64,000 nucleotides of DNA, taken from positions 186,001 through 250,000 of the forward strand of contig NZ_JAVFJK010000001.1 in assembly GCF_030908215.1 (NCBI RefSeq). The letters run 5' to 3'. Shown in pieces: positions 37,966 to 54,203 of this stretch. Made by a program: the position numbers and the translations under genes. This stretch comes from Sinomonas sp. ASV486 (GTDB lineage Bacteria > Actinomycetota > Actinomycetes > Actinomycetales > Micrococcaceae). Every line of letters begins with the position of its first letter. Positions within the stretch are counted from its first letter, which is position 1. The notes beneath the pieces are model-generated. The model was given only the letters and a program-made list of their open reading frames with translations. It made no database searches and had not been told where the DNA came from.

Positions 37966-38056
37966 GTCGGCACGACTGGGCAGGCGTGGGCCCCATGGAC
38001 CGGACTCGGTCGCTCGTCCTCCTCCCTCGTCCTCCACAGGCGGACCGCAGCGCGTG

Positions 38057-38067
38057 TTGTCCACATA
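38057..38067 (+). promoter_or_regulatory. TTGTCCACATA motif upstream of the first AbiEi/DUF559-like gene
   Basis: TTGTCCACATA, whose first nine bases equal the actinobacterial DnaA-box form TTGTCCACA. It ends 50 bases before the chosen ATG. The same 11-mer occurs twice before the second AbiEi/DUF559-like gene. Role unknown: operator, promoter part or DnaA site. Confidence 0.5.
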
Positions 38068-38117
38068 GCGCGGACTGGGGCATGCGCGTCGCGTTCTCGG
38101 CCGCAAAACTCGTGGTC

Positions 38118-39164
38118 ATGGACCCACTCGGACATCTCATTGACACGTCGCGCCGCGACCTCCACGGGCCCTCGGCCGATCCGCGGAGCCAGTTCGCGGC
38201 TGGGGCGATCGCGAGGTTGCGCCGTGGTTTCTATGTCCCGACCGACGTGTGGTGCGGCCTTGAGGCCGATGGCCGTTTCCGCCTGACGTTGGCGGCGCAC
38301 GCGCTGGCCAATCCAGGCGTGGTCTTCTGCGGCGAGACCGCCTTGTTCCTTCATCGGGTTCCCACGGTGAAGGCGCCGCTGACGGTAGATGTCGCGACAG
38401 TGACAACCAGCCGACTTGGCGTGCGGCCGAGCACCTTTGACGTCCGGGGGGAATCGGCGTCCGCAATGCAGGCCAGAGAACGTGGTTCGCACCAGATCCG
38501 ACGGCACCACCACGCCGCCATCGAGTCAATCCCGGTCGGCGAGTTCGAAGCTGTCCCGCTCGCCGATGCGCTTGCGGAGGTTCTAGCTACAGCGAAGTTC
38601 GCGCGGGCGCTGACCGTCGCAGATGGGGTTCTTCGCCGTCAGCCCGATGTCCCGCTGCTTGACCGCGCTGCGGTGGCCGACGCGATCGCAGCGCTTCCGC
38701 ACCGCTCGCACCGATCCCGGGCGGAGCGGATCGCACGCCTGGCCCGCTCGGGCGCCGAGTCGCCGGGTGAGTCCGTGGGGCGGGCGCTGATGCTGCTCTT
38801 CGGCTTCCCGGAACCGATGCTCCAGGCGGAACACTTCGACCAGCTCGGATTCGTGGGACGCACTGACTATTACTGGGGCGACGTTGAGGGGAACCGTGCC
38901 GTGACGGCTCCGGGGAAGCTCGAGCCGGTTGGCGAGTTCGATGGCTGGGGCAAGTACTTCCGCACCGAACTCACGCATGGCGAGGACCCCCGCGAGATCA
39001 TCCGCCGCGAGAAGAAGCGGGAGAATCGGCTCCTCGGTCTCAACCATCCGGTGCTGCGGCTCGATTGGTCCGATCTGAAAAGGCCTGCCCAGTTTCGCGC
39101 GAAGCTCATCCAGATGGGCCTGCGACCAGCCAGCAGCGCTGCCGTAGCGGACAAGCGCGCTTGA
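38118..39164 (+). CDS. AbiEi-type HTH plus DUF559/PD-(D/E)XK-like protein, first copy
   Basis: A 348-residue protein. The N-terminal half resembles the AbiEi antitoxin-type winged helix and sensor region (ARLRRGFYVP, then an NPGVVFCGETALFLHRVP block). The C-terminal part has the layout of a Vsr/DUF559-like nuclease: ESPGESVGRAL (Glu), FVGRTDYYW (Asp), GEFDGWGKY (Glu-Phe-Asp-Gly and Lys) and REKKRENRLLGL with LRLDWSDL. No partner toxin gene is adjacent. The ATG at 38118 is chosen because the upstream motif then lies at the same distance as in the second copy; an ATG at 38082 is possible. The stop codon lies in the loop of a perfect palindrome. It sits alone between rpsQ and rplN. Function unknown. 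Confidence 0.75.
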   Translation: MDPLGHLIDTSRRDLHGPSADPRSQFAAGAIARLRRGFYVPTDVWCGLEADGRFRLTLAAHALANPGVVFCGETALFLHRVPTVKAPLTVDVATVTTSRLGVRPSTFDVRGESASAMQARERGSHQIRRHHHAAIESIPVGEFEAVPLADALAEVLATAKFARALTVADGVLRRQPDVPLLDRAAVADAIAALPHRSHRSRAERIARLARSGAESPGESVGRALMLLFGFPEPMLQAEHFDQLGFVGRTDYYWGDVEGNRAVTAPGKLEPVGEFDGWGKYFRTELTHGEDPREIIRREKKRENRLLGLNHPVLRLDWSDLKRPAQFRAKLIQMGLRPASSAAVADKRA

Positions 39165-39188
39165 AGGGCGCTTGTCCGCTACGGCAGC
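39138..39188. repeat. Right palindrome overlapping the gene end
   Basis: Perfect 21-base arms at 39138-39158 and 39168-39188 around a nine-base loop containing the TGA stop of the preceding gene. It shares GTAGCGGACAAGCGC-like sequence with the palindrome at 37748-37804. It can act as a terminator; there is no T-tract. Confidence 0.85.
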
Positions 39189-39230
39189 ACTGCCAGTGGG
39201 AGCACGACGTCGGGACCCCAGCGGCGTCGT

Positions 39231-39537
39231 CGGGCGTTCCTGCCTGTGCGGGCTGCTCAGTGGGCGTTCGGGTGGGCGTGGGCGTTCGGGGTGGAGATGA
39301 GCGGCGTCGGGCGTTCCCGCCTGGGCGGGCTGCTCAGTGGGCGTTCGGGGTGGACGTGAGCGTCGTCGGGCGTTCCTGCCTGCGCGGGCTGCTCAGTGGG
39401 CGTTCGGGGTGGGCGTGGGCGTTCGGGGTGGACATGAGCGGCGTCGGGCGTTCCTGCCTGCGTGGGCTGCTCAGTGGGCGTTCGGGGTGGAGGCGAGGGT
39501 TGGAGGTGGGCGTTCGGGGTGGACAGGAGCGCCGTGG
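39231..39537. repeat. Four imperfect tandem repeats upstream of rplN
   Basis: Units start at 39231, 39308, 39367 and 39445 (lengths 77, 59, 78 and about 93). Each begins CGGGCGTTCCTGCCTG or close to it, continues GGGCTGCTCAGTGGGCG, and contains one or two GGGCGTTCGGGGTGGA sub-repeats. Length differences come from one or two sub-repeats per unit. No coding potential I would defend. Confidence 0.85.
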
Positions 39538-39543
39538 TACGAT
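39538..39543 (+). promoter_or_regulatory. Candidate -10 box of the spc operon promoter
   Basis: TACGAT directly after the last tandem repeat unit; TTCGGG 19 bases upstream inside the repeat is a weak -35. A leader of about 250 bases without a supported gene (39550-39800) would precede rplN. Confidence 0.3.
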
Positions 39544-39800
39544 ATTGAGCTTGTACGGTTGGCTTCGCCATGCCGTCAGTACCTCGTGAACCATCGTGCC
39601 ACCGCATAATGCCCTTCTGCCGAAGGGGAGCGCCCCGGCGCTGCTCTCGGGCAGGAAGGGGACAAATGCGCTCGGCACGGTGATTCAGGCCCGTTCTGGC
39701 CACATCCAGACGGGTCGAGAGACGCCCCAACAACCGTTCCGCAAGGCTCGGCCGCATGCTGCAACGCGGTACGAGAACCGGCGTGACGTAAGGAGTAGAA

Positions 39801-40169
39801 GTGATTCAGCAGGAGTCGCGGCTCAAGGTCGCCGACAACACGGGTGCGAAGGAAATCCTCACCATCCGTGTTCTCGGTGGATCTGGCCGCCGCTACGCAG
39901 GCATCGGCGACGTGATCGTCGCCACCGTCAAGGACGCGATCCCTGGCGGCAACGTGAAGAAGGGCGACGTGGTCAAGGCCGTCGTCGTCCGTACCAAGAA
40001 GGAGCGCCGCCGTGCGGACGGCTCCTACATCAAGTTCGACGAGAACGCTGCAGTCATCCTCAAGAACGACGGCGACCCCCGTGGCACGCGCATCTTCGGC
40101 CCGGTCGGCCGCGAGCTGCGTGACAAGAAGTTCATGAAGATCGTCTCGCTGGCTCCGGAGGTGCTCTGA
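39801..40169 (+). CDS. rplN: Large ribosomal subunit protein uL14
   Basis: A 122-residue protein; [20 protein letters not shown] and [28 protein letters not shown] are classic (each family-wide). GTG start with AGGAG nine bases upstream. First gene of the spc operon. Confidence 0.98.
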
Positions 40170-40172
40170 CTT

Positions 40173-40535
40173 ATGGGCGCAAAGATCAAGAAGGGCGACC
40201 TGGTCCAGGTCATCACCGGCACCAAGCAGGACAAGGGCGGTGACAAGGGCAAGCAGGGCAAGGTCCTGAAGGTGTTCACCGAGACGAACCGCGTGCTCGT
40301 CGAGGGCATCAACCGCGTCACGAAGCACACCAAGGTCGGCCAGTCGCAGCGCGGCACCAAGACCGGCGGCATCGAGCAGGTCGAAGCCCCGATCCACGTC
40401 TCCAACGTGGCCCTCGTGGACCCCGAGACGAAGAAGCCCACCCGGGTTGGCTTCCGCGTCGAGACGGTGGAGAAGGACGGCGTCACGAAGAACGTCCGCG
40501 TCCGCTACTCCAAGGCCACCGGGAAGGACATCTGA
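40173..40535 (+). CDS. rplX: Large ribosomal subunit protein uL24
   Basis: A 120-residue assembly-initiator protein with the KOW segment [11 protein letters not shown]. The internal stretch [16 protein letters not shown] is slightly longer than in E. coli. The stop overlaps the rplE ATG by one base (TGATG). Confidence 0.97.
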
Positions 40536-41113
40536 TGACTGAGACTGTCGAGACTCCGGTGAAGGTCGTTCCTCGTCTGAAGACGAAGTACGCGGAGAAC
40601 ATCAAGCAGGCGCTCCAGGAAGAGTTCAAGTACGAGAACGTCAACCAGGTTCCCCGCCTGGTCAAGGTTGTCGTCAACATGGGCGTCGGTGACGCCGCCA
40701 AGGACTCGAAGATCATCGAGGGCGCCGTGCGCGACCTCACCCTGATCACTGGCCAGAAGCCGCAGGTCACGAAGGCCCGCAAGTCGATCGCCCAGTTCAA
40801 GCTTCGTGAGGGCATGCCGATCGGCGCCTTCACGACGCTTCGCGGCGACCGTATGTGGGAGTTCGTGGACCGCCTCGTCACCCTCGCGCTGCCCCGTATC
40901 CGCGACTTCCGTGGCCTCTCGGGCAAGCAGTTCGACGGCAACGGCAACTACACGTTCGGCCTCACCGAGCAGGTGATGTTCCACGAGATCGACCAGGACA
41001 AGATCGATCGCCTCCGTGGCATGGACATCACGGTTGTCACGACCGCGAAGACCGATGACGAGGGCCGTGCGCTTCTGAAGCACCTCGGCTTCCCGTTCAA
41101 GACCGAAGACTGA
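40535..41113 (+). CDS. rplE: Large ribosomal subunit protein uL5
   Basis: A 192-residue 5S-binding protein. [15 protein letters not shown] and the VVNMGVGDA and FREGMPIGA-like ([16 protein letters not shown]) blocks are conserved. Next is rpsH with no rpsN (S14) between them, unlike the enterobacterial order. Confidence 0.97.
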
Positions 41114-41188
41114 ATCACTGCGTGAAAGGTCCGGCGCGCCCAAGAGGGCACAGCCGGAAACCGTTACGAGGAAGGGCATGAGCCCACA

Positions 41189-41587
41189 ATGACTATGACT
41201 GATCCCGTCGCAGACATGCTTACCCGTCTGCGCAACGCCAACTCGGCCTACCACGACACGGTCTCCATGCCGTCGTCGAAGCTCAAGGTCCGTGTTGCAG
41301 ACATCCTGAAGGCAGAGGGCTACATCGCCAGCTGGAAGGAAGAGGACGCCGAGGTCGGCAAGAAGCTGACCCTGGACCTCAAGTTCGGCCCGAACCGTGA
41401 GCGTTCGATCGCCGGTGTTCGCCGCATCTCCAAGCCGGGCCTCCGCGTGTACGCGAAGTCCACGAACCTCCCGCACGTGCTGGGCGGCCTCGGCATCGCC
41501 ATCCTGTCGACTTCTTCTGGGCTCCTGACTGACCGTCAGGCCGCCAAGAAGGGCGTCGGCGGCGAAGTCCTCGCGTACGTCTGGTAA
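41189..41587 (+). CDS. rpsH: Small ribosomal subunit protein uS8
   Basis: A 132-residue protein, [18 protein letters not shown] start and [26 protein letters not shown] end. In E. coli S8 represses the spc operon; here no S8-like mRNA site was identified. Confidence 0.98.
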
Positions 41588-41605
41588 GGGAAGGAAGAAG
41601 AAGAT

Positions 41606-42142
41606 ATGTCCCGCATTGGACGTCTCCCCATCACCGTCCCCGCCGGCGTCGAGGTCAAGATCGACGGCTCCGTGGTGACCGTCAAAGGCACCAAGGGCGA
41701 GCTGACCCACACTGTGGCCAGCCCGATCGAGGTCTCCCTCGACGACACGACCCTCTCGGTGACCCGCCCGAACGACGAGCGCGCCTCGCGTTCGCTGCAC
41801 GGCCTGACCCGCACCCTGATCTCGAACATGATCGAGGGCGTGACCAAGGGCTACGAGAAGAAGCTCGAGATCGTCGGCACCGGTTACCGTGTGCAGGCCA
41901 AGGGCTCGAACCTCGAGTTCGCGCTCGGCTTCTCGCACCCCGTGAACGTCGATGCCCCCGAGGGCATCACGTTCGCGGTCGAGAACCCGACGAAGTTCTC
42001 GGTCTCCGGCATCAACAAGCAGCAGGTCGGTGAGGTTGCGGCCAACATCCGCAAGCTGCGCAAGCCCGACCCGTACAAGGGCAAGGGCATCCGCTACGCC
42101 GGCGAAATTGTCCGCCGCAAGGTCGGAAAGGCTGGTAAGTAA
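41606..42142 (+). CDS. rplF: Large ribosomal subunit protein uL6
   Basis: A 178-residue protein: [17 protein letters not shown] start, and [25 protein letters not shown] end. Two bases separate it from rplR. Confidence 0.98.
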
Positions 42143-42144
42143 CC

Positions 42145-42528
42145 ATGGCTCTGGGTATCAACAAGAAGCGCGCCGCCAAGTCCAAGCAGCAGGCTCGGAC
42201 CCGTCGCCACTTCCGTCTCCGCAAGAAGGTCATCGGTTCCGCCGAGCGTCCCCGTCTCGTGGTGAACCGTTCCTCGCGTCACGTCTTCGTCCAGGTTGTC
42301 GACGACAGCAAGGGCATCACGCTGGTCTCCGCCTCGACCCTCGAGGCCGACCTCCGCGCGTTCGACGGCGACAAGACCGCCAAGGCCAAGCGCGTGGGCG
42401 AGCTCATCGCCGAGCGTGCGAAGGCTGCTGGCATCGAGGCCGTCGTGTTCGACCGCGGTGGCAACAAGTACCACGGCCGCGTTGCTGCGATCGCGGACGG
42501 CGCACGTGAAGGTGGGCTGGCCCTGTGA
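42145..42528 (+). CDS. rplR: Large ribosomal subunit protein uL18
   Basis: A 127-residue 5S-binding protein; [20 protein letters not shown] and [24 protein letters not shown] identify it. The stop overlaps the rpsE GTG start (GTGA). Confidence 0.98.
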
Positions 42529-43229
42529 GCGCAGAGAACGCAGTGAACGCAGAGAAGGACAACGTGTCTGAGCAGAATGCACCCGAGGCTGCTGAGTCCG
42601 CTCCCGCCACCGATGACCGCCGCGGCGGCCGTCGTGGCGAGGGTCGTGGCCAGGGCCGCGGCGACCGTGGTGGCCGTGGTGGCCGCGACGGTGGTCGCGA
42701 TGCCGAGAAGAGCCAGTTCATCGAGCGCGTGGTGACCATCAACCGCGTCGCCAAGGTCGTCAAGGGCGGCCGTCGCTTCAGCTTCACCGCCCTCGTGGTG
42801 GTTGGCGACGGCAACGGCATGGTCGGCGTCGGCTACGGCAAGGCCAAGGAGGTCCCCGCGGCCATCGCCAAGGGCGTGGAGGAGGCCAAGAAGTCCTTCT
42901 TCCGCGTGCCGCGCGTCGGCACGACCGTCCCGCACCTCGTGCAGGGTGAGGCCGCTGCAGGCGTCGTCCTGCTCCGTCCGGCTGCCCCGGGTACCGGTGT
43001 TATCGCCGGCGGTCCGGTGCGCGCCGTGCTCGAGTGCGTCGGTATCCACGACGTGCTGTCCAAGTCCCTCGGGTCCTCGAACGCCATCAACATCGTCCAC
43101 GCGACGGTCAAGGCGCTCAAGAACCTCGAGGAGCCGCAGGCCGTGGCTGCACGCCGTGGCCTTCCGCTGGAAGATGTCGCTCCGGCTGCACTCGTGCGGA
43201 ACCTCCAGAACACGAAGGCAGGTGCATGA
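42525..43229 (+). CDS. rpsE: Small ribosomal subunit protein uS5
   Basis: A 234-residue protein. The core from [21 protein letters not shown] to the end is normal. The first 60 residues are an acidic then Arg/Gly-rich extension ([20 protein letters not shown]), absent from E. coli S5 (167 residues). GTG start overlaps rplR; a GTG at 42564 is an alternative that would shorten the acidic part. Confidence 0.96.
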
Positions 43230-43232
43230 GTC

Positions 43233-43439
43233 ATGGCGAAGAACCTGGCTCCCTCCGACGCCACGTTGGAGATCACGCAGATCAAGGGCGTCGTCGGCGC
43301 CAAGCAGAACCAGCGCGATACCCTGCGGTCGCTCGGCCTCAAGCGGATCGGCCACACGGTCACCCGTAAGGCAGACGCGGTCACCGTTGGCATGGTCAAC
43401 ACGGTTCCGCACCTCGTGAAGGTTGAGGAGGCGAAGTAA
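43233..43439 (+). CDS. rpmD: Large ribosomal subunit protein uL30
   Basis: A 68-residue protein; [20 protein letters not shown] and [10 protein letters not shown] are the family core. rplO starts on the next base. Confidence 0.97.
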
Positions 43440-43934
43440 ATGGCTGAGAACGAAAACGCTGCCAAGGCAGAGACTGAGAAGGCTGAGAAGTCTTCCGCGC
43501 TCAAGGTCCACCACCTGCGTCCCGCCGTTGGCGCCAAGACCGCGAAGACCCGTGTGGGTCGCGGTGAGGGCTCCAAGGGCAAGACCGCCGGTCGTGGCAC
43601 CAAGGGCACGAAGGCCCGCTACCAGGTCAAGGCTGGCTTCGCTGGCGGGCAGCTTCCGCTGCACATGCGCCTGCCGAAGCTCCGTGGCTTCAAGAACCCG
43701 TTCCGCGTCGAGTTCCAGGTGGTGAACCTGGACCGTCTCTCCGAGCTCTTCCCGGAGGGTGGCGCTGTTTCGGTCGAGGATCTCGTGGCCAAGGGCGCCG
43801 TTCGCAAGAACGAGCCGGTCAAGGTTCTCGGCTCCGGCGACATCACCGTCAAGGTCGACGTCACGGCGCACGCCTTCTCGGCGTCCGCCTCGGAGAAGAT
43901 CGTCGCGGCCGGCGGTTCCGCGAACGTCCTCTGA
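43440..43934 (+). CDS. rplO: Large ribosomal subunit protein uL15
   Basis: A 164-residue protein with about 18 extra Lys/Glu/Ala residues at the N-terminus before [13 protein letters not shown]. The [19 protein letters not shown] and FEGGQMPL-like ([19 protein letters not shown]) blocks are present. Last gene before a strong terminator, so secY is on a separate transcript. Confidence 0.97.
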
Positions 43935-43970
43935 GAGGCTAGTGGCACCCGGCTGACGCCGTGAGCACAA

Positions 43971-44016
43971 AGGCCCCGGTCGGCGTCGTGATTATTCACG
44001 ACGCCGACCGGGGCCT
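43971..44016 (+). terminator. Strong terminator after rplO
   Basis: A perfect 20-base stem (43971-43990 with 43997-44016) and ATTATT loop, followed by CACGCTTTAAG. Its inner part is GGCGTCGTG/CACGACGCC, related to the recurring hairpin-arm family. A single unpaired CGCACGACGGCG is at 44055-44066. Confidence 0.9.
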
Positions 44017-44152
44017 CACGCTTTAAGTCGGCCCCAGCGTGCGGCGGCGCGGGGCGCACGACGGCGACCGGGCCCTTCCCCGTTCGCCGCACCGTAGGTG
44101 CCGCTCGGCCCGGGACGGGGCGCCCAATTATCCGCTCAGGGGCCCGTGCCGC

Positions 44153-44158
44153 TAGACT
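44153..44158 (+). promoter_or_regulatory. Candidate -10 box for secY-adk-map
   Basis: TAGACT with an upstream GC; the -35 is weak. A promoter is expected here because of the terminator 140 bases earlier. It leaves a leader of about 75 bases. Confidence 0.35.
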
Positions 44159-44241
44159 CGTGAGCTGGACCCATGCTCCGAAGCGCTCACCCGCGTCTCG
44201 GAGTGACGACTCTACATTCCTCGACTCGGGGGAGGAGAAGC

Positions 44242-45558
44242 GTGCTTTCTGCGATTGGCCGGGCATTCCGGACGCCCGACCTGCGGCGCAAGCTGCTGTT
44301 CACGCTCGCGATCATTTCCATTTTCCGGCTCGGGGCCTTCATCCCCTCGCCGGGAGTGAACTACCACAACGTCCAGGTGTGCATCTCCCCGGGCGTCCAG
44401 GGCGAGCAGACCGGCATCTACCAGATGCTGAACCTGTTCAGCGGCGGCGCGCTCCTCCAGGTGTCGATCTTCGCGCTCGGCATCATGCCGTACATCACGG
44501 CGTCGATCATCGTGCAGCTGCTCCGCGTGGTCATTCCGCGGTTCCAGGAGCTGTACGACGAGGGCCAGTCCGGCCAGACGAAGCTGACCCAGTACACGCG
44601 CTACCTCACGATCGCGCTGGGCCTGCTGAACGCGACGACGCTGGTCTCGCTCGTCCGTTCGGGCCAGCTGTTCCCGAACTGCCAGCTGCCGATCATCCCG
44701 GACACGAGCATCGTCGCCACGATCCTCGTGGTCATCACGCTCACGGCCGGAACCGGCCTCATCATGTGGATGGGCGAGCTCGTGACGGAGAAGGGCATCG
44801 GCAACGGCATGTCCCTGCTGATCTTCACGTCCATCGCCGCGCAGTTCCCGTCCTCGCTGGGCGCGATCTGGACCTCGAAGGGCCCGGGCACCTTCTTCAT
44901 TGTGCTCGTGATCGGCCTCGTCACCATGACGCTCGTCATCTTCGTCGAGCAGTCCCAGCGCCGCGTGCCGGTTCAGTACGCGAAGCGCATGATCGGCCGC
45001 CGCACCGTGGGCGGGACGAGCACGTACATCCCGATCAAGGTCAACATGGCCGGCGTGATCCCCGTGATCTTCGCTTCGTCCATGCTCTACCTGCCCGCGC
45101 TCCTCGCGCAGTTCAACACCCCGCATGACGGCTCCGCGCCCGCGGGCTGGGTCGAGTGGATCAACAACAACCTGACCCGCGGCGATCACCCGATGTACAT
45201 GGTCATCTACTTCCTGCTGATCATCTTCTTCACATACTTCTACGTCGCGATCACCTTCAACCCTGAAGAGGTCTCCGACAACATGAAGAAGTACGGGGGC
45301 TTCATCCCCGGCATCCGTGCCGGGAAGCCTACTGCGGACTACTTGCAGTACGTACTTTCGCGCATCACGATGCCGGGTGCCCTGTACCTGGGAATCGTGG
45401 CTCTTATCCCGCTCATCGCGCTCGTGCTCGTCAACGCGAACCAGAACTTCCCGTTCGGTGGCACGTCGATCCTGATTGTGGTGGGCGTTGGCCTGGAGAC
45501 GGTCAAGCAGATCGATGCGCAGCTCCAACAGCGGCACTACGAAGGACTATTGCGATGA
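44242..45558 (+). CDS. secY: Protein translocase channel subunit SecY
   Basis: A 438-residue ten-helix membrane channel. The GTG at 44242 gives MLSAIGRAFRTPDLRRKLLFT, the family start, with GGAGGAG about five bases upstream. RLGAFIPSPGV (helix 1-plug) and the cytoplasmic loop QRRVPVQYAKRMIGRR are conserved. The stop overlaps adk by four bases (ATGA). Confidence 0.98.
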   Translation: MLSAIGRAFRTPDLRRKLLFTLAIISIFRLGAFIPSPGVNYHNVQVCISPGVQGEQTGIYQMLNLFSGGALLQVSIFALGIMPYITASIIVQLLRVVIPRFQELYDEGQSGQTKLTQYTRYLTIALGLLNATTLVSLVRSGQLFPNCQLPIIPDTSIVATILVVITLTAGTGLIMWMGELVTEKGIGNGMSLLIFTSIAAQFPSSLGAIWTSKGPGTFFIVLVIGLVTMTLVIFVEQSQRRVPVQYAKRMIGRRTVGGTSTYIPIKVNMAGVIPVIFASSMLYLPALLAQFNTPHDGSAPAGWVEWINNNLTRGDHPMYMVIYFLLIIFFTYFYVAITFNPEEVSDNMKKYGGFIPGIRAGKPTADYLQYVLSRITMPGALYLGIVALIPLIALVLVNANQNFPFGGTSILIVVGVGLETVKQIDAQLQQRHYEGLLR

Positions 45559-46136: not shown

Positions 46137-46228
46137 AGGCTTTTTGAGCACGACGACGCGTGGCGCCGTCCGGCGGGCAACCTCCGGGCGGCGCTTCGTC
46201 AGTCCTGAGGGTGAGTGACGAGGAGAGG

Positions 46229-47062
46229 ATGGCTGTGGGCAGCCAGCGGAAGATCGAGTACAAGAACAACGGGCAGCTGCGGATCATGGCGGAGGCGGGC
46301 GTCCTGCTGAGCCGGGCGCTGGACGCGGCCGTGGCCGCCGTGAAGCCGGGAGCCACGACCGACGAGATCGACGCGGCGTTCGCCGAAGTGGTTGACGCCG
46401 CCGGCGCCCAGTACAACTTCCTCGGTTACTACGGCTACCCGAAGCACATCTGCGTGTCCGTCAACGACGAGGTGGTCCACGGCATCCCCGGCCCGCGGAA
46501 GCTCGTCGACGGCGACATCCTCTCGATTGACGGCGGGTGCATCGTGCGCGGCTGGAATGCCGACTCGGCCCGGACAGTGATCGTGGGGGAGGGCGATCCG
46601 GAGGACGTGCGCCTGTCCGAGATGACGCGCCAGGCCATGTGGCGGGGCATCGCGGCGTTTGCCACCGGGTCCCACGTGGGCGACGTCGGTGACGCGATCG
46701 ACGACTTCGTGTCCGCCCAGGACGGCGCTCCGCTCGGCATCCTCGAGGACTATGTGGGGCACGGCATCGGCTCCGAGATGCACATGGCGCCCGACGTGCT
46801 GAACTACCGCACCGGCCACCGCGGCGCCAAGATCAAGCCGGGCATGGCCCTCGCGATCGAACCGATGCTTGTGCGCGGATCCATCGAGACCAAGACCCTC
46901 GACGACGAGTGGACCGTCGTGACGACGGACGGCGCGCGCGCCTCCCAGTGGGAGCATTCCGTGGCGCGGCACACGGGCGGCATCTGGGTGCTCACGGCGG
47001 AGGACGGCGGCGCCTCCGAACTGGAGCCCCTCGGGGTCGCCCCGGTCCCGATCCCGTCCTGA
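46229..47062 (+). CDS. map: Methionine aminopeptidase type I
   Basis: A 277-residue enzyme that removes the initiator Met. The metal ligands are in SIDGGCIVRGWNADSA (two Asp), GHGIGSEMH (His), EPML (Glu) and WEHSV (Glu), with the substrate His in HGIPGPRK. The exact start is uncertain: AGGAGAGG at 46221-46228 fits an ATG at 46229 (tight) or a GTG at 46235 (better spaced); upstream GTG codons are also open. In most relatives infA follows; here 9.7 kb intervene. Confidence 0.94.
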   Translation: MAVGSQRKIEYKNNGQLRIMAEAGVLLSRALDAAVAAVKPGATTDEIDAAFAEVVDAAGAQYNFLGYYGYPKHICVSVNDEVVHGIPGPRKLVDGDILSIDGGCIVRGWNADSARTVIVGEGDPEDVRLSEMTRQAMWRGIAAFATGSHVGDVGDAIDDFVSAQDGAPLGILEDYVGHGIGSEMHMAPDVLNYRTGHRGAKIKPGMALAIEPMLVRGSIETKTLDDEWTVVTTDGARASQWEHSVARHTGGIWVLTAEDGGASELEPLGVAPVPIPS

Positions 47063-47099
47063 CGGAATACCTCTCGGCAGCGCCGGGTTGGCCACAGGC

Positions 47100-48023
47100 A
47101 TGAAGGCATTGACTTATAGCACCTACGGCTCCGCGGACGTCCTCGAGCTCACTGACCTCCCCACGCCGCATCCGGGCTCCGATTCCGTGCTCGTGAAGGT
47201 GAAGGCCGCGAGCATCAACCCTGTGGACTACAAGGCCCGCGAAGGCTACCTCCGCAGTGTGCTCGATACCGTGTTCCCCGCGGTGCCGGGCTGGGACGTC
47301 GCCGGCGTCGTGGTCAGGCCGGGCCTGGACACTCCCGAGTTCGCCGCGGGCGACGAGGTCCTCGCCTATGCCCGCAAGGACGTGATCTCCGGCGGGACGC
47401 TTGCCGAGTACGTGGAGGTTCCCGTGCGGACGGCGGCTCGGAAGCCTGAGGGCCTGAGCTTCGAGCCCGCCGCCGCGCTGCCGCTCACCGGCCTCACGGC
47501 GCTCCAGACCGTGCGGCGGGCGGGCGTCTCGGCCGGGCAGACCGTGCTCATCCATGCCGCCGCGGGCGGCGTGGGCTCCTTCGCAGTCCAGCTCGCGGTC
47601 CTCGCGGGCGCGCGTGTGATCGGCACGGCGTCGGAGCCCAACCACGGCTACCTCCGCTCGCTCGGGGCGGAGCCTGTCGCCTACGGAGACGGCCTCGTGG
47701 ACGCCGCGAGGGCCCTGGCCCCCGAGGGCTTCGACGTGATCCTCGACTTCGTGGGCGGCGACGCGATGGACACGGTCCCGCAATTGCTCCGCGAGGGCGG
47801 CATGGTTGCCTCGATCACCGACCCTCGCGCCCGCGACACCTACGGCGGCCAGTACGTGTGGGTCCGCCCCCACTCGGAGCAGCTCGCCGAGCTGGCACAG
47901 CTCGCGGCCGAGGGAACGCTCAAGGTCGAGATTGCCGATGTCTTCGAGCTCGACCATGCCGCCGAGGCCTACCGCAGGCTCGAGACCGGCCACGTGCGCG
48001 GCAAGCTCGTCGTCCGGGTCTGA
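47100..48023 (+). CDS. NADP-dependent quinone-oxidoreductase-like MDR protein
   Basis: A 307-residue zinc-free medium-chain dehydrogenase/reductase. ASINPVDYKAREG in the GroES-like domain and AAAGGVGSFAVQLA (nucleotide-binding GxxGxxG) identify the quinone oxidoreductase branch, which reduces quinones or enones with NADPH. The substrate is unknown. It starts 37 bases after map and may be cotranscribed with it. No catalytic zinc cysteines are present. Confidence 0.88.
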   Translation: MKALTYSTYGSADVLELTDLPTPHPGSDSVLVKVKAASINPVDYKAREGYLRSVLDTVFPAVPGWDVAGVVVRPGLDTPEFAAGDEVLAYARKDVISGGTLAEYVEVPVRTAARKPEGLSFEPAAALPLTGLTALQTVRRAGVSAGQTVLIHAAAGGVGSFAVQLAVLAGARVIGTASEPNHGYLRSLGAEPVAYGDGLVDAARALAPEGFDVILDFVGGDAMDTVPQLLREGGMVASITDPRARDTYGGQYVWVRPHSEQLAELAQLAAEGTLKVEIADVFELDHAAEAYRRLETGHVRGKLVVRV

Positions 48024-48050
48024 TCCGTCCTCCGACGCCCGTGAAGCGCG

Positions 48051-48084
48051 ACGACGCCGCTCACCCCGGGAGGTGAGCGGCGCC
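48051..48084. terminator. Bidirectional terminator between convergent genes
   Basis: CCGCTCACC (48057-48065) / GGTGAGCGG (48072-48080), extendable by ACGACG / CGCCGT with one mismatch, loop CCGGGA-like. It serves the oxidoreductase and the transporter operon on the other strand. Confidence 0.6.
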
Positions 48085-48111
48085 GTTGTGTGCGGTTGCC
48101 GCAGGCGGAGG

Positions 48112-49458
48112 CTAGGCCTTCAGCTTCGGCTTGACGTCCTTCTCGTAGATGCCGGTCAGCGTCTTCTTGAGGTCCGCGAGCGTGGCCTTGACGTCGCCCT
48201 GCTGAGTGACGATCTTGGCGACGGCCTTGCCCATCTCCTGGTCCGCACCCGGGAGGAAGACGCGGGCGTTGTCCTGGACCTTGGTCACGGCGAGCTGGTC
48301 GATCGCGGTCTGGATCTGCGGTGTCTTGGCCAGCACTGCGGTCATGTCCGCGGACTTGCGCACCGGCATGTAGCCGGTTGCCGAGGAGAAGAGCGCGGCG
48401 TTCTCGGGCTCGCCCACGAACTTGATGAACATGGCCGCGGCGAGCTGCTGCTCCTTGGTCACGCCCGCGGAGATCGCGAGCCCGGCGCCGCCGGTCGGGA
48501 CCACGGGCTTGGAGGCCTTGGGGCCGCCCGGGAGGAAGCCGACGCCCACGTTGAACTTCGAATCCTTGAGGATGCCCACGAGTCCGCCGGTCGAGTTGAT
48601 CGTGGTAGAGGCGATGCCTGCCGCGAAGTCGGCGCCCTGATCCTTCGAGGACACGCCGGCCCACTTGTCCTTGTAGACCGAGTCCTGGATCCACTGCATC
48701 GCGGCGACGGCGTCGTCCGAGTCACACGTGATGTCCCAGCCCTTGGACCAGCCCGAGCCCCAGCCCCACAGGTTGTTCTGCATGGTCCAGCCGGCGTAGC
48801 CCGCCAGCGGGCCGTACTGGAACGCGTTCTGCGCAGCGCCCAATGCCTTGAGCTTGGGGGCCCATTCAGCGAACTCGGTCCACGTGGTCGGCGCACGGTC
48901 AGGCAGACCAGCGGCCTTGAAGTGGTCCTTGTTGTAGTAGAACAGCGGCGTGGACCGGGCATACGGCATGGCCCACTGCTTGCTGTTGTACTGGTAGTCC
49001 TGCACGAGCGAGTCGCGGTAGTCGCCCACGTTGACGCCCAGCTGCTTGTTGAGCGAGTCCAGCGAGATGATGCTGTCGTTGATGAAGAAGCGGAACCACC
49101 ACACGTCCGAGAGCACCGAGACGGCCGGCAGGCCCGTGTTCGCGGCCAGGGCGGCCTGGAGCTTCTGTGCGGTCTCCTCGTAGTTGGCGCCCGCCGTGAC
49201 GAGGTTGACCTTGATGCTCGGGTTGGCGGTCTGGAACTTCTCGATGAGCTGCTTCTCGACATCCTCGGACTTGCCGGGGTGGCTCGACCAGAAGTCGAAC
49301 GTCGCGGCGGGCTTGACGCCCGAAAAGTCGATGTCCGCTGCGGCGGTGGTTGCCGCGGTGCCCGAGGTGTCCGGGCCACCGCACGCGGCGAGGGCCGCAG
49401 CGGCTGTGCCGGCTCCGGCCAGGCCCAGGAAATGGCGGCGGTCGAGTCGGAATGACAT
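48112..49458 (-). CDS. ABC transporter substrate-binding lipoprotein, sugar/glycerol-phosphate type
   Basis: A 448-residue extracellular binding protein (family 1 solute-binding). The N-terminus has a twin-arginine signal (RRHFLGLAGAG) and a lipobox ending LAAC, so it is probably exported folded by Tat and lipid-anchored at Cys26. The region STPLFYYNKDHFKAAGLPDRAPTTWTEF is typical of UgpB/MalE-like proteins. The ligand may be glycerol-3-phosphate or a sugar; the UgpB idea is only an inference from length and partner layout. It is last in the operon and preceded by a hairpin, and may have separate expression. Confidence 0.85.
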   Translation of the reverse strand: MSFRLDRRHFLGLAGAGTAAAALAACGGPDTSGTAATTAAADIDFSGVKPAATFDFWSSHPGKSEDVEKQLIEKFQTANPSIKVNLVTAGANYEETAQKLQAALAANTGLPAVSVLSDVWWFRFFINDSIISLDSLNKQLGVNVGDYRDSLVQDYQYNSKQWAMPYARSTPLFYYNKDHFKAAGLPDRAPTTWTEFAEWAPKLKALGAAQNAFQYGPLAGYAGWTMQNNLWGWGSGWSKGWDITCDSDDAVAAMQWIQDSVYKDKWAGVSSKDQGADFAAGIASTTINSTGGLVGILKDSKFNVGVGFLPGGPKASKPVVPTGGAGLAISAGVTKEQQLAAAMFIKFVGEPENAALFSSATGYMPVRKSADMTAVLAKTPQIQTAIDQLAVTKVQDNARVFLPGADQEMGKAVAKIVTQQGDVKATLADLKKTLTGIYEKDVKPKLKA

Positions 49459-49500
49459 GGTGTGCCTTTCGTTATGGGTGCTTTGGGGAACGGGTCTGGG

Positions 49501-49559
49501 GGCGCACGACGGCGGGTGGCCAGCGTCGCGCTCGAGGCGAGCGGGCGGCGTCGTGCGCC
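49501..49559 (-). other. Intercistronic hairpin between permease and binding-protein genes
   Basis: GGCGCACGACG (49501-49511) / CGTCGTGCGCC (49549-49559), with an inner CGCTCG/CGAGCG stem (49529-49543). It contains CGCACGACGGCG (49503-49514). No T-tract: it may attenuate, or mark a processing site so that the binding protein is made at a different level. Confidence 0.6.
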
Positions 49560-49576
49560 GACTCCGCCCGCAGCGC

Positions 49577-50476
49577 CTAGCCGGTGACGGAGCCCTGGGT
49601 GAGGCCAGCGACGATGTAGCGCTGGAGCATCGCGAAGACGATGAGCACCGGAAGGATCACGAGGACAGCGCCCGCCATGAGGATGCCCCAGGTGCCGCCA
49701 CCGCCTTCGGAGTTCTGCAGCAGGGTCAGGCCTACGGGCAGCGTCATGACCTCGGGCTTGTCCGTGATGATGAGGGGCCAGATGTAGTCGTTCCACTCGG
49801 ACACGATCGTCACGAGCGCCACGGTGGCGATCGAGGGGACCGAGATCGGCACCACGACCTGCCACAGGCGCTTCCAGTGACCGGCGCCGTCGATCTCCGC
49901 CGCCTCGAGGATCGAGCCGGGCAGCGTCATGAAGTGCTGTCGAAGGAGGAACGTACCGAATGCCGTGCCGAGGCCCGGGAGGATGATGCCCCAGAGGGTG
50001 TTCTTCCCGCCGATGCCCGCGATGAGCACGTAGTTCGGCAGGATCGAGACCTGCGAGGGAACCATGAGCGCCACGAGGATGAGCACGAAGATCACGTTCT
50101 TGAACGGGAAGCGCACAAACACTAGGGCGTACGCGGTCATGATCGCGAGGGTGACCTTGACGGTGGCTCCGACGGCGGTGACGATCGCCGAGTTGAGGAA
50201 GAACCGCCCGAACGGCACGGTGGTCATGGCCGTGGCGTAGTTGTCCAGGGTGACCGAGTCGGGGAGGATCTTGAGGTCCGTCGTGAGGATTTCGTGTGGC
50301 GTCTTGAACGAGCTCAGCACCATCCACAGCAGGGGCAGGGCAATGATGAGCGTCGCGATGATGAGCGGCAGGTAGCCGCCGGCGATGGTGCGGACGAGGT
50401 TCTGCGACGAGAACGGACGCGGTCGGACGGGTTCACCGGCGTGGGCGGAGACTTCGACGGGTGCGGGGGCGCTCAT
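49577..50476 (-). CDS. ABC transporter permease, MalG/UgpE type
   Basis: A 299-residue inner membrane protein with six helices. The EAA loop AAEIDGAGHWKRLWQVVVPIS is present; it contacts the ATPase. The start overlaps the stop of the other permease gene by four bases (ATGA). The first 30 residues are Pro/Ala-rich and cytoplasmic. Confidence 0.93.
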   Translation of the reverse strand: MSAPAPVEVSAHAGEPVRPRPFSSQNLVRTIAGGYLPLIIATLIIALPLLWMVLSSFKTPHEILTTDLKILPDSVTLDNYATAMTTVPFGRFFLNSAIVTAVGATVKVTLAIMTAYALVFVRFPFKNVIFVLILVALMVPSQVSILPNYVLIAGIGGKNTLWGIILPGLGTAFGTFLLRQHFMTLPGSILEAAEIDGAGHWKRLWQVVVPISVPSIATVALVTIVSEWNDYIWPLIITDKPEVMTLPVGLTLLQNSEGGGGTWGILMAGAVLVILPVLIVFAMLQRYIVAGLTQGSVTG

Positions 50477-51426
50477 GCGTAGTGCACCTTCTTCTCGACG
50501 AAACGGATCTGCACCACGGTGATGACGAGCAGGATCACGAAGAGGACCACGGAGATCGAGGCCGAGTAGCCGGCGCGGTTGTACGCGCCGAAGGCCTGGA
50601 GGTAGGCCTCGTAGATCAGGGTGCTCGTGCCGTTGCCGAGCGGGGTCATGATCCTGATCAGGTCGAAGGCCTGGAGGCTCGAGATGATCGTGGTGATGAG
50701 CAGGAAGAACGTGGTGGGGGAGAGCAGCGGGAGGCTGATGCTCAGGAAGCGGCGCACAGGCCCGGCGCCGTCGAGCGACGCGGCTTCCATGACGTCGTTC
50801 GGGAGGGACTGCAGCCCCGCGAGGTACACCACCGCGCAGTAGCCCAGGTTCTTCCAGACATACACGATGATGACCATCGTCAGCGCGAGCTGCGGGTTGT
50901 TGAACCACTCCGGGCTCTTCGCGCCGAAGCTCCGCAGGACCCACGAGAGGGCGCCGTAGCCGGGGTCGAAGATGAACATCCAGACGAGGCCCACGCCCAC
51001 GCCCGAGAGGACGTAGGGGGCGAACACCGCTGACCGAGCGAATGTGGTGCCGCGGACCTTCGCGTTCAGGGCGAGGGCCACGAGGATCCCCAAGACCATG
51101 GAGAGCCCCACGGTGAGTACCGTGAAGAGGCCCGTGGTGCCGAGGACTCGGGGGGCGTCGTCGCTCGTGAAGAACGTGACGTAGTTGTCGAGCCCGATGT
51201 TCCGGGCGGTCTTCGAGCCGAGCGTCCAGTCGAGGAACGAGTACTGGAGGTTCGTGAAGAGCGGTCGGTACGTGAACACCCCGATCAGCACCAGGTTCGG
51301 GAGGGCGAACGCGAGGAAGACCCAGAAATCGCGCCGCGTGCGGCCTGCGAATCGTGGGCGCCGGTGCTCTGGCTTCGGCTGAGCTGATGGGGACTGCGAA
51401 CTGCGTTCCAGTGTTAGATCGCTCAT
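50473..51426 (-). CDS. ABC transporter permease, MalF/UgpA type
   Basis: A 317-residue inner membrane permease with six helices after a basic cytoplasmic N-terminus; EAA loop EAASLDGAGPVRRFLSISLP. First gene of the permease-permease-binding protein operon. No ATPase gene is nearby, so a shared MsmX/UgpC-type ATPase elsewhere is expected. Confidence 0.93.
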   Translation of the reverse strand: MSDLTLERSSQSPSAQPKPEHRRPRFAGRTRRDFWVFLAFALPNLVLIGVFTYRPLFTNLQYSFLDWTLGSKTARNIGLDNYVTFFTSDDAPRVLGTTGLFTVLTVGLSMVLGILVALALNAKVRGTTFARSAVFAPYVLSGVGVGLVWMFIFDPGYGALSWVLRSFGAKSPEWFNNPQLALTMVIIVYVWKNLGYCAVVYLAGLQSLPNDVMEAASLDGAGPVRRFLSISLPLLSPTTFFLLITTIISSLQAFDLIRIMTPLGNGTSTLIYEAYLQAFGAYNRAGYSASISVVLFVILLVITVVQIRFVEKKVHYA

Positions 51427-51641
51427 GGACGAACCCGGCGGATGGCATAGGACATTGAGAAGACCTTCCTTCGGTCTTGGGCATACTCCAAAACCCCCCG
51501 GGATAGTGGATCATGGCGCGATGTTACGGGTCACCGAAATCTGGTGAACGTGGGATGAATTTCCCCTCGTGTATCCGAGAGTTAACCCTGTGTTGGTATC
51601 GGGAGTGGCCAACATCACGGGCCCCCGCGTTGAATGGGCCC

Positions 51642-52676
51642 ATGGGATCCCTTCTCGATGTGCCCGGGCTCCGGGTTGGACACGCACAGCGCACGGACGG
51701 TGGGTGGCTCACGGGAGTGACCGCCGTCGTGCTTCCTCCCGGCAGCGCCGGAGGGGTGGACGTGCGAGGGGGTGGGCCTGGAACGATCGAGACTGACGCC
51801 CTCGACCCCTCGACCCTCGTGCAGACCGTGGACGGGATCGCGTTGACCGGCGGGAGCGCGTACGGGCTCGCCTCCGCCAGCGGTGTCCAGCTGTGGCTCG
51901 AGGAGCAGGGTCAGGGGCATCCTGTGATGGGCGGCGTGGTGCCGATCGTGCCCGGGGCTGTGATCTTCGACCTCGGCCGCGGGGGCGACTTCCGCGCGCG
52001 ACCCGATGCCGCGATGGGGTACTCGGCCGCTGCCGCTGCCGTGGGTCTCGAGGACGCGTCCGACGGCGGCCTCCGCGGCTGCGTCGGGGCCGGCACCGGT
52101 GCGGTGCTCGGCAGGGGGCAGTACAAGGGCGGCGTCGGGATGGCTTCCGTGCGACTTCCCGGCGGGGCCGTGCCGGGGCCGCCCGGGGCGCCCGAGGTCT
52201 CGCTGCCTGAGGGGATCGTCGTGGGAGCGATCGCCGTGGTGAACGCTGCGGGGTTCCCGGTCTTCGCCGAGGCTGGCGCGCATATGGGGGAGGGCTGGTC
52301 CGGCGCGCCCGTGGTCAACGGCACCGTGCACGACGCCGCCCGCTCGCCCGAGTCGCTGAACACGACGCTCGCGGTGGTCGCCACCAACGCGGCACTGACA
52401 CCGGCGGAGAGCAGGCGGCTCGCGACCGCCGCGCACTCGGGCCTGGCCCGGGCCCTGGACCCCAGCCATACGCAGGTCGACGGCGACACGATCTTCGGTG
52501 TCTCGACGAGGGCCATCGAGTTCGACCGCTCGACGGACGCGGGCCGCGTCGTGGGGCTCATGATGGTCCAGATCGCCGCCGCCCAAGCTGTGCGCGAGGC
52601 GATCCTCGACGGAGTCCGTTCGGCCACCGCTGTCACAACGCCCGCTGGTTCCTGGGAGCCCTACCCGGCGGCGTGA
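51642..52676 (+). CDS. P1/DmpA-family N-terminal nucleophile aminopeptidase
   Basis: A 344-residue protein of the L-aminopeptidase/D-esterase (DmpA/BapA) family. Members self-cleave in front of a Ser or Thr; SLNTTLAVVATNAAL near residue 245 is the candidate site. GVTAVVLPPGSAGGVDVRGGGPGT near the start and GGSAYGLASASGVQ are typical. The ATG at 51642 gives MGSLLDVPGLRVGH; upstream in-frame starts (51555 and others) add sequence unlike the family. No ribosome binding site is seen. TTGAAT lies six bases before the ATG, so a leaderless start is possible but weak. Confidence 0.85.
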   Translation: MGSLLDVPGLRVGHAQRTDGGWLTGVTAVVLPPGSAGGVDVRGGGPGTIETDALDPSTLVQTVDGIALTGGSAYGLASASGVQLWLEEQGQGHPVMGGVVPIVPGAVIFDLGRGGDFRARPDAAMGYSAAAAAVGLEDASDGGLRGCVGAGTGAVLGRGQYKGGVGMASVRLPGGAVPGPPGAPEVSLPEGIVVGAIAVVNAAGFPVFAEAGAHMGEGWSGAPVVNGTVHDAARSPESLNTTLAVVATNAALTPAESRRLATAAHSGLARALDPSHTQVDGDTIFGVSTRAIEFDRSTDAGRVVGLMMVQIAAAQAVREAILDGVRSATAVTTPAGSWEPYPAA

Positions 52677-52790
52677 GCGGCGTGCGGGCTGACTGGTGGG
52701 TTGGCGGCGGGGGCCTGTCGGCTCGTGGCTGGCGCGCGGATAGAGGTTTGCGCGTGCTGTGGTCGGCCTCGGAGGCGGCCACGCGAGCGT

Positions 52791-52908
52791 GTACCGTGGT
52801 CCCCAGCTCTTGGGGCCACCCGCGTTGCAGCGTGTCCGCGAGCCCCTTGATCATGCGGGTTGAAGGCAGAAGCTGGGGACGAAGGCACCGAAAGGTGGGG
52901 AGGAACGC
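52791..52908. repeat. 118-base hairpin element, copy A
   Basis: It begins GTACCGTGGTCCCCAGCTCT and ends GAAAGGTGGGGAGGAACGC. Same length and order of conserved blocks as copy B at 54086-54203. The two ends can pair (GTCCCCAGCT with AGCTGGGGAC, 10 bases). It ends five bases before the stop of the second AbiEi/DUF559-like gene and may be its terminator. The rest of 52677-52913 has no supported gene. Confidence 0.7.
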
Positions 52909-52913
52909 ACGCC

Positions 52914-53759
52914 TCACAGGACTGGCAGCCTGCCCATGGAAAGCCGAGCCGCCACGACGGCCTTGACCCGCTCAACCATCTGATCCGGATGATGCACCAC
53001 ATCGCCGTAGCCGACCCGAACTACCGCCAGACGCAGCGTCTGCGCGTGGGCATCACGCGCGTAGTCCTTGTACCGGCTCGCGGGCTTCTGGTGCTCCTTG
53101 CCGTCGGTCTCGAGGATCACGCATTCCTCGACGAGGTGATCCACCCAACCGACGCCTCCAATCTCTACCTGCGACCGTACGCGCAGGCCTGCCCGGCGCA
53201 GATGGGTCCGGGCAAGAGTCTCCACGAGCGAGTCGGCCCCCGGCTCGATCAGATCGAGCACCGCGCGTACACGGCCGTTGCGGCGCCCTGGCAACTGCGC
53301 GAGCAGGTAGTCCTTCGACAATCCCTTCTGGACAGCGGACTCGGCAATCACGAGGGCCTCAAGCTCGGGCAGGCAGGAGAGGGCATGCAGCACCACGTCG
53401 GCGAGGGATGCGAACCGGCTCCCCGGGTCGGCAGCGGCCCACGACTGCCGGTGCACTACGGCTCGGTCCGACACCAGGCGCCCGTCGGACCGGAGCAGAT
53501 GCACCTTCTCGGGCTCGTGCAGCACCCAGAGTCCGTGGTTTTCGGCTGCGGACACGCAGGTCAGGAGGGAGTTGGTCGTCAGGCACCGCACGAGCAGGGG
53601 GTCGGCGTCGGGAAGTGCGACGACGCCCCGCGCCGGCTGCTCGATCGAGCCCTTCGCCAGCGCTGCCTGCAGTTGACGGCGGCTCACGCCCAGGGACAGG
53701 AGTTCCCCCGTGCGGGCGGCGCCATTCCTCAGAGCGACGAGCTCCTTGACGTTGGGCAT
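52914..53759 (-). CDS. AbiEi-type HTH plus DUF559/PD-(D/E)XK-like protein, second copy
   Basis: A 281-residue protein. The N-terminus (NGAARTGELLSLGVSRRQLQ ... AARGVVALPD-like, then LTCVSAAENHGLWVLHEPEK) is an AbiEi-antitoxin-type helix-turn-helix region. The C-terminus has the DUF559 plan: SLVETLARTHLRRAG (Glu), VGWVDHLVEE (Asp), VILETDGKEHQ (Glu-x-Asp-Gly-Lys) and LRLAVVRVGYGDV. Same architecture as the first copy but clearly divergent. The ATG at 53759 is preferred over an upstream TTG, which overlaps a ribosome-site-like GGAG. No toxin partner is adjacent. Flanked by two 118-base hairpin elements. Function unknown. Confidence 0.75.
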   Translation of the reverse strand: MPNVKELVALRNGAARTGELLSLGVSRRQLQAALAKGSIEQPARGVVALPDADPLLVRCLTTNSLLTCVSAAENHGLWVLHEPEKVHLLRSDGRLVSDRAVVHRQSWAAADPGSRFASLADVVLHALSCLPELEALVIAESAVQKGLSKDYLLAQLPGRRNGRVRAVLDLIEPGADSLVETLARTHLRRAGLRVRSQVEIGGVGWVDHLVEECVILETDGKEHQKPASRYKDYARDAHAQTLRLAVVRVGYGDVVHHPDQMVERVKAVVAARLSMGRLPVL

Positions 53760-53808
53760 GCCCTCATCGTCGCTGGCTCCAATCCGGTACTGCGGCGGCT
53801 TCAACTCC

Positions 53809-53837
53809 TATGTGGACAACAACTCATATGTGGACAA
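53809..53837 (-). promoter_or_regulatory. Two TTGTCCACATA motifs upstream of the second copy
   Basis: Read on the minus strand, TTGTCCACATA occurs at 53837-53827 and 53819-53809, 18 bases apart. The nearer copy ends 49 bases before the ATG, against 50 in the first gene. Confidence 0.55.
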
Positions 53838-53985: not shown

Positions 53986-54098
53986 TGGGTGCTGCACGGA
54001 TGGCTGATCGGTACCGTGCTCCCTAGGTCTCGGATGAGACGGCACCCGGTCGGGTCTCTCTGGGTGCTGCACGGATGGCTGATCGGTACCGTGCTCCC
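53986..54098. repeat. 38-base perfect direct repeat
   Basis: 53986-54023 and 54061-54098 are identical, 75 bases apart start to start. The second runs into hairpin element copy B. The whole of 53838-54449 has no supported gene apart from these repeats. Confidence 0.8.
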
Positions 54099-54203
54099 CA
54101 GCTCTTGGCGCGTGCCGGCGCTCGGCGCTCGCGGGTTCCGCGGGATCCTGCGGGTTGAAGGCTAAAGCTGGGGAGCACGGTACCGAAAGGTGGGGAGGGA
54201 CGC
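54085..54203. repeat. 118-base hairpin element, copy B
   Basis: Copy B (54086-54203) matches copy A in order and length. Its arms are a perfect 19-base inverted repeat, GGTACCGTGCTCCCCAGCT (54085-54103) and AGCTGGGGAGCACGGTACC (54166-54184), with a 62-base loop. Confidence 0.8.

Follow-up and report, generated by a model that had tools for sequence, protein, structure and literature searches.

Two genes related to AbiEi/DUF559 proteins, gene 1 and gene 2, lie in a 64,000-nucleotide stretch of the Sinomonas sp. ASV486 genome (contig NZ_JAVFJK010000001.1, positions 186,001 to 250,000), which is referred to below as the window, and each is preceded by the 11-mer TTGTCCACATA, here called the box. 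A first-pass annotation had placed the 11-mer at three sites, at nearly the same distance from the ATGs of both genes and with an extra copy before gene 2. The three copies, the gaps of 50 and 49 bases and the tandem arrangement, in which the two boxes of gene 2 start 18 bases apart, are all present (Table 1). The expected number of TTGTCCACATA in the window is 0.00 (100 dinucleotide shuffles), and its nine-base core TTGTCCACA is found at just the same three sites (0.19 expected). Both genes have a −10-like hexamer that ends 6-7 bases before the ATG, and the gap between box and hexamer is 37 bases in either case. We consider it likely, on the strength of this layout and of the genes described below, that the box serves an activator of a natural-competence regulon whose promoters are leaderless, and that both window genes belong to it.

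Table 1. Boxes, putative promoter elements and genes at the two loci of the window
Feature	Position	Strand	Remarks
Main box TTGTCCACATA of gene 1	38057..38067	+	37 bases before −10-like hexamer, 50 before ATG
Second TCCACA, within TCCTCCACAGG	38033..38038	+	27 bases upstream of the main-box core of gene 1
−10-like hexamer AAAACT, gene 1	38105..38110	+	7 bases before ATG; putatively leaderless type
Gene 1, 348 amino acids	38118..39164	+	AbiEi/DUF559-like by sequence relationship
Proximal box TTGTCCACATA of gene 2	53809..53819	-	37 bases before −10-like hexamer, 49 before ATG
Distal box TTGTCCACATA of gene 2	53827..53837	-	perfect direct repeat, 18 bases upstream of proximal box
−10-like hexamer GACGAT, gene 2	53766..53771	-	6 bases before ATG; putative
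Gene 2, 281 amino acids counted from ATG	52914..53759	-	AbiEi_4 helix-turn-helix and DUF559 domain

Position and gene set of the box

Searches of 11 genomes were made with protein profiles of the gene-2 type (A1) and the gene-1 type (A2), and upstream DNA was taken from 83 places (one gene of genome G056 entered twice, and some fragments and weak matches were not taken). Members with 140 bits or more were regarded as strong, and a box was counted where TCCACAT, allowing no more than one mismatch, stood 46-52 bases ahead of a start codon in frame. The box is present at 45 of the 52 strong members (37 exact), compared with 0-10 of 52 (exact 0-6) in ten gap-shifted windows, which upholds the earlier suggestion of a conserved control site at a fixed distance. 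The 52 include 11 seeds, all of them boxed; the non-seeds alone give 34/41, or 26/41 exact. Among weak homologues the box was found in 8/31 (shifted controls 0-5). The raised control values at shifts of +20 to +40 would fit a second copy of the box.

The 4.28-Mb genome contains 13 copies of TTGTCCACATA and none of its reversed sequence; for TTGTCCACA the corresponding numbers are 29 and 6. Three of the 13 copies of the 11-mer are those of the window (two at gene 2, one at gene 1). Four others stand upstream, at 48-50 bases from the ATG, of genes for a 258-amino-acid GmrSD_C/HNH protein with a hydrophobic stretch at its N-terminus, a tadZ-like protein, a DUF4192 protein and a comF-like phosphoribosyltransferase. 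A further copy is located 49 bases before a short open reading frame in the recA leader (the recA start is 109 bases after the box), and three precede DUF5129 genes, where the ATG is 88 bases off but a TAGGCT hexamer begins 37 bases after the box. The remaining two copies (L004, L012) have no such gene behind them. The variant TTGTCCACATG adds two DUF559-like genes, an M23 peptidase gene and ssb, the last with the box 90 bases off and a −10 that is not clear. The tadZ-like gene itself reaches no Pfam family; the genes that follow it encode T2SSE and two T2SSF domains, which corresponds to tadABC order. A weaker copy, CCTTCCACATG, precedes comEA with a gap of 49, and TCGTCCACATA precedes the cpaB (RcpC) gene on contig 18, also with a gap of 49 and with the hexamer TAGCTT; the second cpaB paralogue (contig 1) has no box. 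The predicted targets in this genome include comEA, the tadZ-tadABC pilus operon, one of the two cpaB genes, the comF-like gene, recA, the gene for the HNH protein with the hydrophobic N-terminus and the AbiEi/DUF559-like nuclease genes, among them both window genes.

Beyond the single genome, a strict pattern (TTGTCCACATR, 46-52 bases, ATG) was searched in 80 genomes of the family, which was taken to be Micrococcaceae, giving 73 matches compared with 2 for the reversed control (one G004 site was counted twice). A chance origin of the box is ruled out by these counts, by the 13 copies against 0 in the genome and by the shuffles of the window. DNA was taken at all 73 sites, and the 74 locus records (10 from the genome under study, 64 from others) were reduced to 60 promoters before alignment: two were dropped as repeats of counted sites (L104, L109) and twelve by eye, as having no plausible gene or lying inside coding DNA (L087, L088, L096-L100, L105, L128, L140, L141, L143).

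A hexamer of the form nAnnnT with its end 5-8 bases ahead of the ATG is seen in all of these 60 promoters except L092; shifting the hexamer window upstream by 10, 15 and 20 bases reduces the count to 1, 2 and 9 of 60. The hexamer begins 35-38 bases after the box in 59/60 (36-37 in 47 of the 59), and the gap from box to ATG is 47-51 with a mode of 49, the search range being 46-52. Outside the box, which the search had fixed, the alignment is strongest in two columns, A at −11 and T at −7 relative to the ATG; weaker ones are C at −1, G at −5, A at −12 and G directly after the box, together with a weak A or C column about 20 bases upstream of it. Fifteen bases after the box, where a −35 element would begin, T is found in 28/60. 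As the box lies 35-38 bases upstream of the −10 and there is no clear −35, it occupies the place of an upstream activator. A second upstream TCCACA is seen at a spacing of 26-28 nine times (gene 1 included) and at 16, 18 and 39 once each, where base shuffles predict about 0.1 per 10-base bin. A transcription activator would be expected to bind the box and switch on the natural-competence (transformation) regulon, with a start site some 50-60 bases after the box, mostly at the ATG itself, which would give a leaderless mRNA. Some promoters have the second direct copy 18-28 bases further up, an arrangement which suggests that more than one protomer binds, head to tail.

The genes behind the 60 promoters were classed by similarity groups, with names given by Pfam for representatives and by similarity for the others. 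The largest class is AbiEi/DUF559-like (14/60, that is 13 in one group and L040 with a broken frame), followed by tadZ-like, DUF4192 and DUF222-HNH genes (six each), M23 peptidases (four), comF-like genes, RecQ-like helicases and DUF488 genes (three each), and cpaB, FtsK, adenylosuccinate lyase and short frames (two each). HNH, recA, alkyltransferase-like, Phd antitoxin, aminotransferase IV, DUF1877 and MFS transporter genes occur once. A DNA uptake or processing type can be assigned to 39/60 (counting DUF559-like, tadZ-like, cpaB, comF-like, HNH, recA, RecQ-like, DUF222, FtsK and alkyltransferase-like genes), of which 20 (DUF559-like, DUF222) are nuclease-like by domain only.

Several of these loci have features of their own. 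The recA promoter (L009, G000:C7:29678-29800) contains CTGTCGGTGG between the box and its −10 (TAGCGT), which resembles a PafBC-dependent damage promoter, and two controls may overlap here. The DUF5129-type genes L005, L007 and L013, on three contigs, have a common box and identical printed upstream DNA and protein ends, a likeness that would reflect either a recent duplication or an assembly repeat. DUF222-HNH (13E12-type) genes of two genera (L089, L111, L120-L122, L125) have the same box, and this family may also be competence-timed. A frame that resembles DNA polymerase I by eye is divergent to the tadZ-tadABC operon at L075:10714-12735.

Conservation at comEA

The most widely conserved target of the box found is comEA. 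In the genome under study and 39 relatives (40 of 41 loci), exact TCCACAT at a gap of 46-52 was found in 12, one mismatch in 19 and two or more in 9, counts that have no shifted control. A named set was fetched by ComEC, comprising the best 80 loci, 74 of them with comEA (M. luteus itself is not included). With all candidate starts scanned, exact TCCACA lies at the right gap in 44/74, and ten shifted gaps gave 1-18 of 74, the highest value (18) being at +30, the position of the second copy. In a blind version, the start was picked from the −10 and the start codon alone, for which 65 actinobacterial records were usable. Exact TCCACA then ends 50-54 bases before the start in 38/65 (48-52 if counted from the end of the 11-mer), none is found at 0-49 bases and 30 further copies lie mostly at 69-83, while the reverse complement of TCCACA has 2 copies in the 200 bases upstream of all 65. 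Boxed comEA genes include those of Arthrobacter, Pseudarthrobacter, Yaniella, Auritidibacter, Nesterenkonia, Salinibacterium, Cellulosimicrobium, Amycolatopsis, Umezawaea, Lentzea, Herbihabitans, Actinokineospora, Sphaerisporangium and an Acidothermales metagenome-assembled genome. The strict 11-mer gave 11 matches outside its own family in 393 genomes of the class, compared with 9 for the reversed control, and hence only the TCCACA core at comEA is widespread.

The box behaves as a competence box would, in that it is found before uptake genes (comEA, pilus, comF), at a fixed promoter position, and is rarer when shifted or reversed. A number of observations weigh against a competence regulon and have to be set beside this. 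The strict pattern is present in just 22 of the 80 family genomes, and the first T of the −10 hexamer is absent in both window genes. At comEA, 27/65 have no exact core at the position, no good match was found in Agromyces, Cryobacterium, one Leifsonia, one Lentzea, Lacisediminihabitans, Saccharopolyspora, Rothia and others, and the Micrococcus records read GCGTCCACCGT (imperfect) or CCATCCACAGA. Across three genomes of the genus, 3/7 RcpC/CpaB genes have the box (1/3 in G006, 1/2 in G036 and 1/2 in the genome under study); in three Micrococcus-type genomes CpaB gave no RcpC match. Some boxed genes (DUF488, adenylosuccinate lyase, MFS transporter, aminotransferase IV, DUF1877 and DUF5129) have no known link to transformation, and the names tadZ-like and comF-like are tentative, going by gene order and by weak or general Pfam matches.

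Candidate readers and rival explanations

The first-pass annotation had also proposed DnaA control. The nine-base core TTGTCCACA equals the actinobacterial DnaA box, but the 3′ extension is unlike that of the boxes beside dnaA. More specifically, in 12 genomes the 1,100 bases that follow dnaA, regarded as the oriC region, were searched with the pattern TTNTNCACA, which could not show boxes without TT, and 26 boxes were found in 11 genomes: TTATCCACA, another DnaA-box form, 16 times, TTGTCCACA 8 times and TTTTCCACA twice, with none found in G080. These are followed by G in 21/26 and by TA or TG in 0/26. Among non-seed family boxes, position 10 is a T in 28/34, which the one-mismatch TCCACAT choice slightly favours, and TA or TG follows in 24/32 of those with an exact core (nine genomes are common to both lists). 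As far as can be judged from the sites themselves, this 3′ difference favours, within this family, a reader distinct from DnaA. The window boxes match the core of TTNTNCACA; many comEA boxes have no 5′ TT (CTT and GTT keep it partly, CCA and CAG do not).

If the box were nonetheless an ordinary DnaA box, DnaA would activate these promoters and tie DNA uptake to replication initiation, an idea that is compatible with a regulon and that we regard as possible though unlikely. It fits the identity of the core, the comEA boxes of Amycolatopsis, Umezawaea, Herbihabitans and Sphaerisporangium melleum, which read TT[GA]TCCACA, and the presence of exactly one protein over the DnaA_C cut-off in each of 12 genomes; set against it are the 3′ extension and the frequent lack of the 5′ TT at comEA. 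Because comEA boxes in several other orders resemble ordinary DnaA boxes, DnaA is kept as a candidate reader. A DnaA paralogue was considered as activator and rejected: the single DnaA_C protein per genome (12/12) leaves no DnaA-like paralogue to account for the core, and the only other DnaA_C matches up to E 1, three in total (G080, G019 and G046), are all far below the cut-off.

Regulators of the BldC type, with an HTH_17 domain, bind direct repeats head to tail, as tandem boxes would need, and this likeness is a lead only. In M. luteus, mutations in the HTH_17 protein Mlut_14660 were found in mutants with raised comEA promoter activity, according to the portion of PMC8467076 covered. The latter protein could not be tied to the box and is likewise only a lead. 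A motif scan of nine loci and seven cpaB loci found no HTH_17/BldC-like regulator beside cpaB or tadZ, and at 30 of 47 HTH_17 places in six genomes tblastn showed neither a cpaB nor a tadZ relative within about 1.5 kb; since some loci comprise only about 0.2 kb of upstream DNA, this is a weak negative.

Two further suggestions of the first-pass annotation concerned the encoded proteins. In an autoregulatory scheme, the AbiEi-type helix-turn-helix of these proteins would bind the box before their own genes, in line with the domain in gene 2 and the box at 45/52 strong family members. The same box is found before comEA of many actinobacteria and before tadZ-like, cpaB, comF-like, recA and other unrelated genes, so autoregulation is not supported and appears very improbable. 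That the box recurs beside nuclease-like genes could mean that it is the recognition or cleavage site of their products, an explanation to which we give hardly any credence: its distance to the −10 is fixed, it has one orientation at comEA and genes for other products are boxed too. A further rival is a broader stress or DNA-repair regulon, in which the transformation genes would be one branch. The boxed recA, RecQ-like helicases, alkyltransferase-like gene and many HNH/DUF222 and DUF559 genes argue for it; comEA, the most widely conserved target, and the tadZ-like, cpaB and comF-like genes argue for competence instead, and this rival seems possible though unlikely.

Gene products and known systems

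Gene 2 passes two Pfam cut-offs, with 30.6 bits for AbiEi_4 (cut-off 25) and 21.7 bits for DUF559 (cut-off 20.6); its residues D207, E217 and D219 are invariant among six aligned sequences, and its family profile matches PDB 3hrl, an endonuclease-like protein (E 1.3e-4). Gene 1 is below every Pfam cut-off, with 12.1 bits for AbiEi_4 and no nuclease model; its relative L085 passes AbiEi_4 (28.4 bits) and does not pass MTES_1575 (27.2 of 38.2). Both genes fall in one protein similarity group, and the C-terminal EFDG..KY nuclease-like motif of AbiEi/DUF559-like proteins is also found in gene 1; the products are putative nucleases. A single-sequence fold prediction for gene 2 had a mean pLDDT (predicted local distance difference test) of 46 and was not used. 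Three plasmid records match the gene-2 family at 27-29% identity, and 64 viral_contigs stretches matched a pattern, none of them confirmed as phage copies. No AbiEii-like partner, the toxin gene expected of a type IV toxin-antitoxin system AbiE, was recognised beside the window genes when the neighbours were read by eye, without a family search; these are ribosomal-protein genes around gene 1 and other open reading frames around gene 2. Directly after gene 1 (window 39200-39530) there are imperfect repeat units of GGGCGTTCGGGGTGG type, as judged by eye, and between gene 2 and the next gene (window 53987-54190) a GGTGCTGCACGGATGGCTGATCGGTACCGTGCTCCC-like stretch is directly repeated, with part of it seemingly inverted just downstream.

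The putative nucleases would most probably serve in the processing or restriction of incoming DNA during competence; a competence-coupled selfish spread ranks second and repair third. A wider proposal, which we would offer only as speculation with rather low odds of being right, is that a single DnaA-box-like site, read by DnaA or another activator, has controlled transformation since early Actinomycetota. In this view the abundant solitary DUF559 and DUF222-HNH genes would encode nucleases timed to competence, which would either act on incoming DNA, by processing or restricting it, or propagate their own genes by cutting recipients, with transformation mending the cut.

In the literature covered (titles and abstract openings, with few subscription papers), no such box was described for actinobacterial competence, and the 11-mer itself was matched, going by title, solely in work on animals, people, human viruses and yeast. 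The M. luteus competence regulon is described as currently unknown, with upstream signals and regulatory cascade still to be identified, in the part seen of a 2026 account (PMC12849477). What the box suggests is a hitherto undescribed switch, common to this group of bacteria, for natural transformation, with unexplained nuclease-like genes under it. With its position defined, the box supplies a set of target genes, can serve as bait for the activator and marks a place to mutate in existing comEA reporters; it also hints at the time and purpose for which Actinobacteria use their solitary DUF559/AbiEi-like and DUF222-HNH genes.

A close comparison is with the com and tad genes of Micrococcus luteus (Angelov 2015, PMC4322843; Torasso 2021, PMC8467076), where comEA-comEC, tad and cpaB are implicated in transformation, and here these are boxed; no box, regulon or activator site is described in the parts of these accounts covered. 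In the same partial coverage, knock-out of cpaB (Mlut_14650) lowers transformability 10^4-fold (Torasso 2021, PMC8467076), and a missense mutation in an FtsK-type gene beside tad-1 makes it at least 1000-fold lower (PMC8467076), for which putative boxed FtsK-type counterparts exist in two relatives (L129, L135). In the freshwater actinobacterium R. lacicola, light-off is followed by a rise of comEC and of every tad gene but not of comEA (PMC8591293, seen in part), and com and tad genes therefore need not move together. As for AbiEi/DUF559 (Vsr-like) proteins, gene 2 is alike by Pfam; here there are many copies per genome, and they are under the box. The DnaA box has an identical nine-base core, and the regulon sites differ from it by the 3′ TA/TG, a freer 5′ end and the fixed distance to the −10. 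In Firmicutes and Gammaproteobacteria, the competence boxes include the ComK box, the cin-box of SigX/ComX and CRP-S sites. For M. luteus, the part of PMC4322843 covered reports the absence of a ComK homologue. The likeness to these boxes is that one short site before uptake, pilus and recombination genes makes them a regulon, whereas sequence and position differ, and the promoters here would be of the leaderless type.

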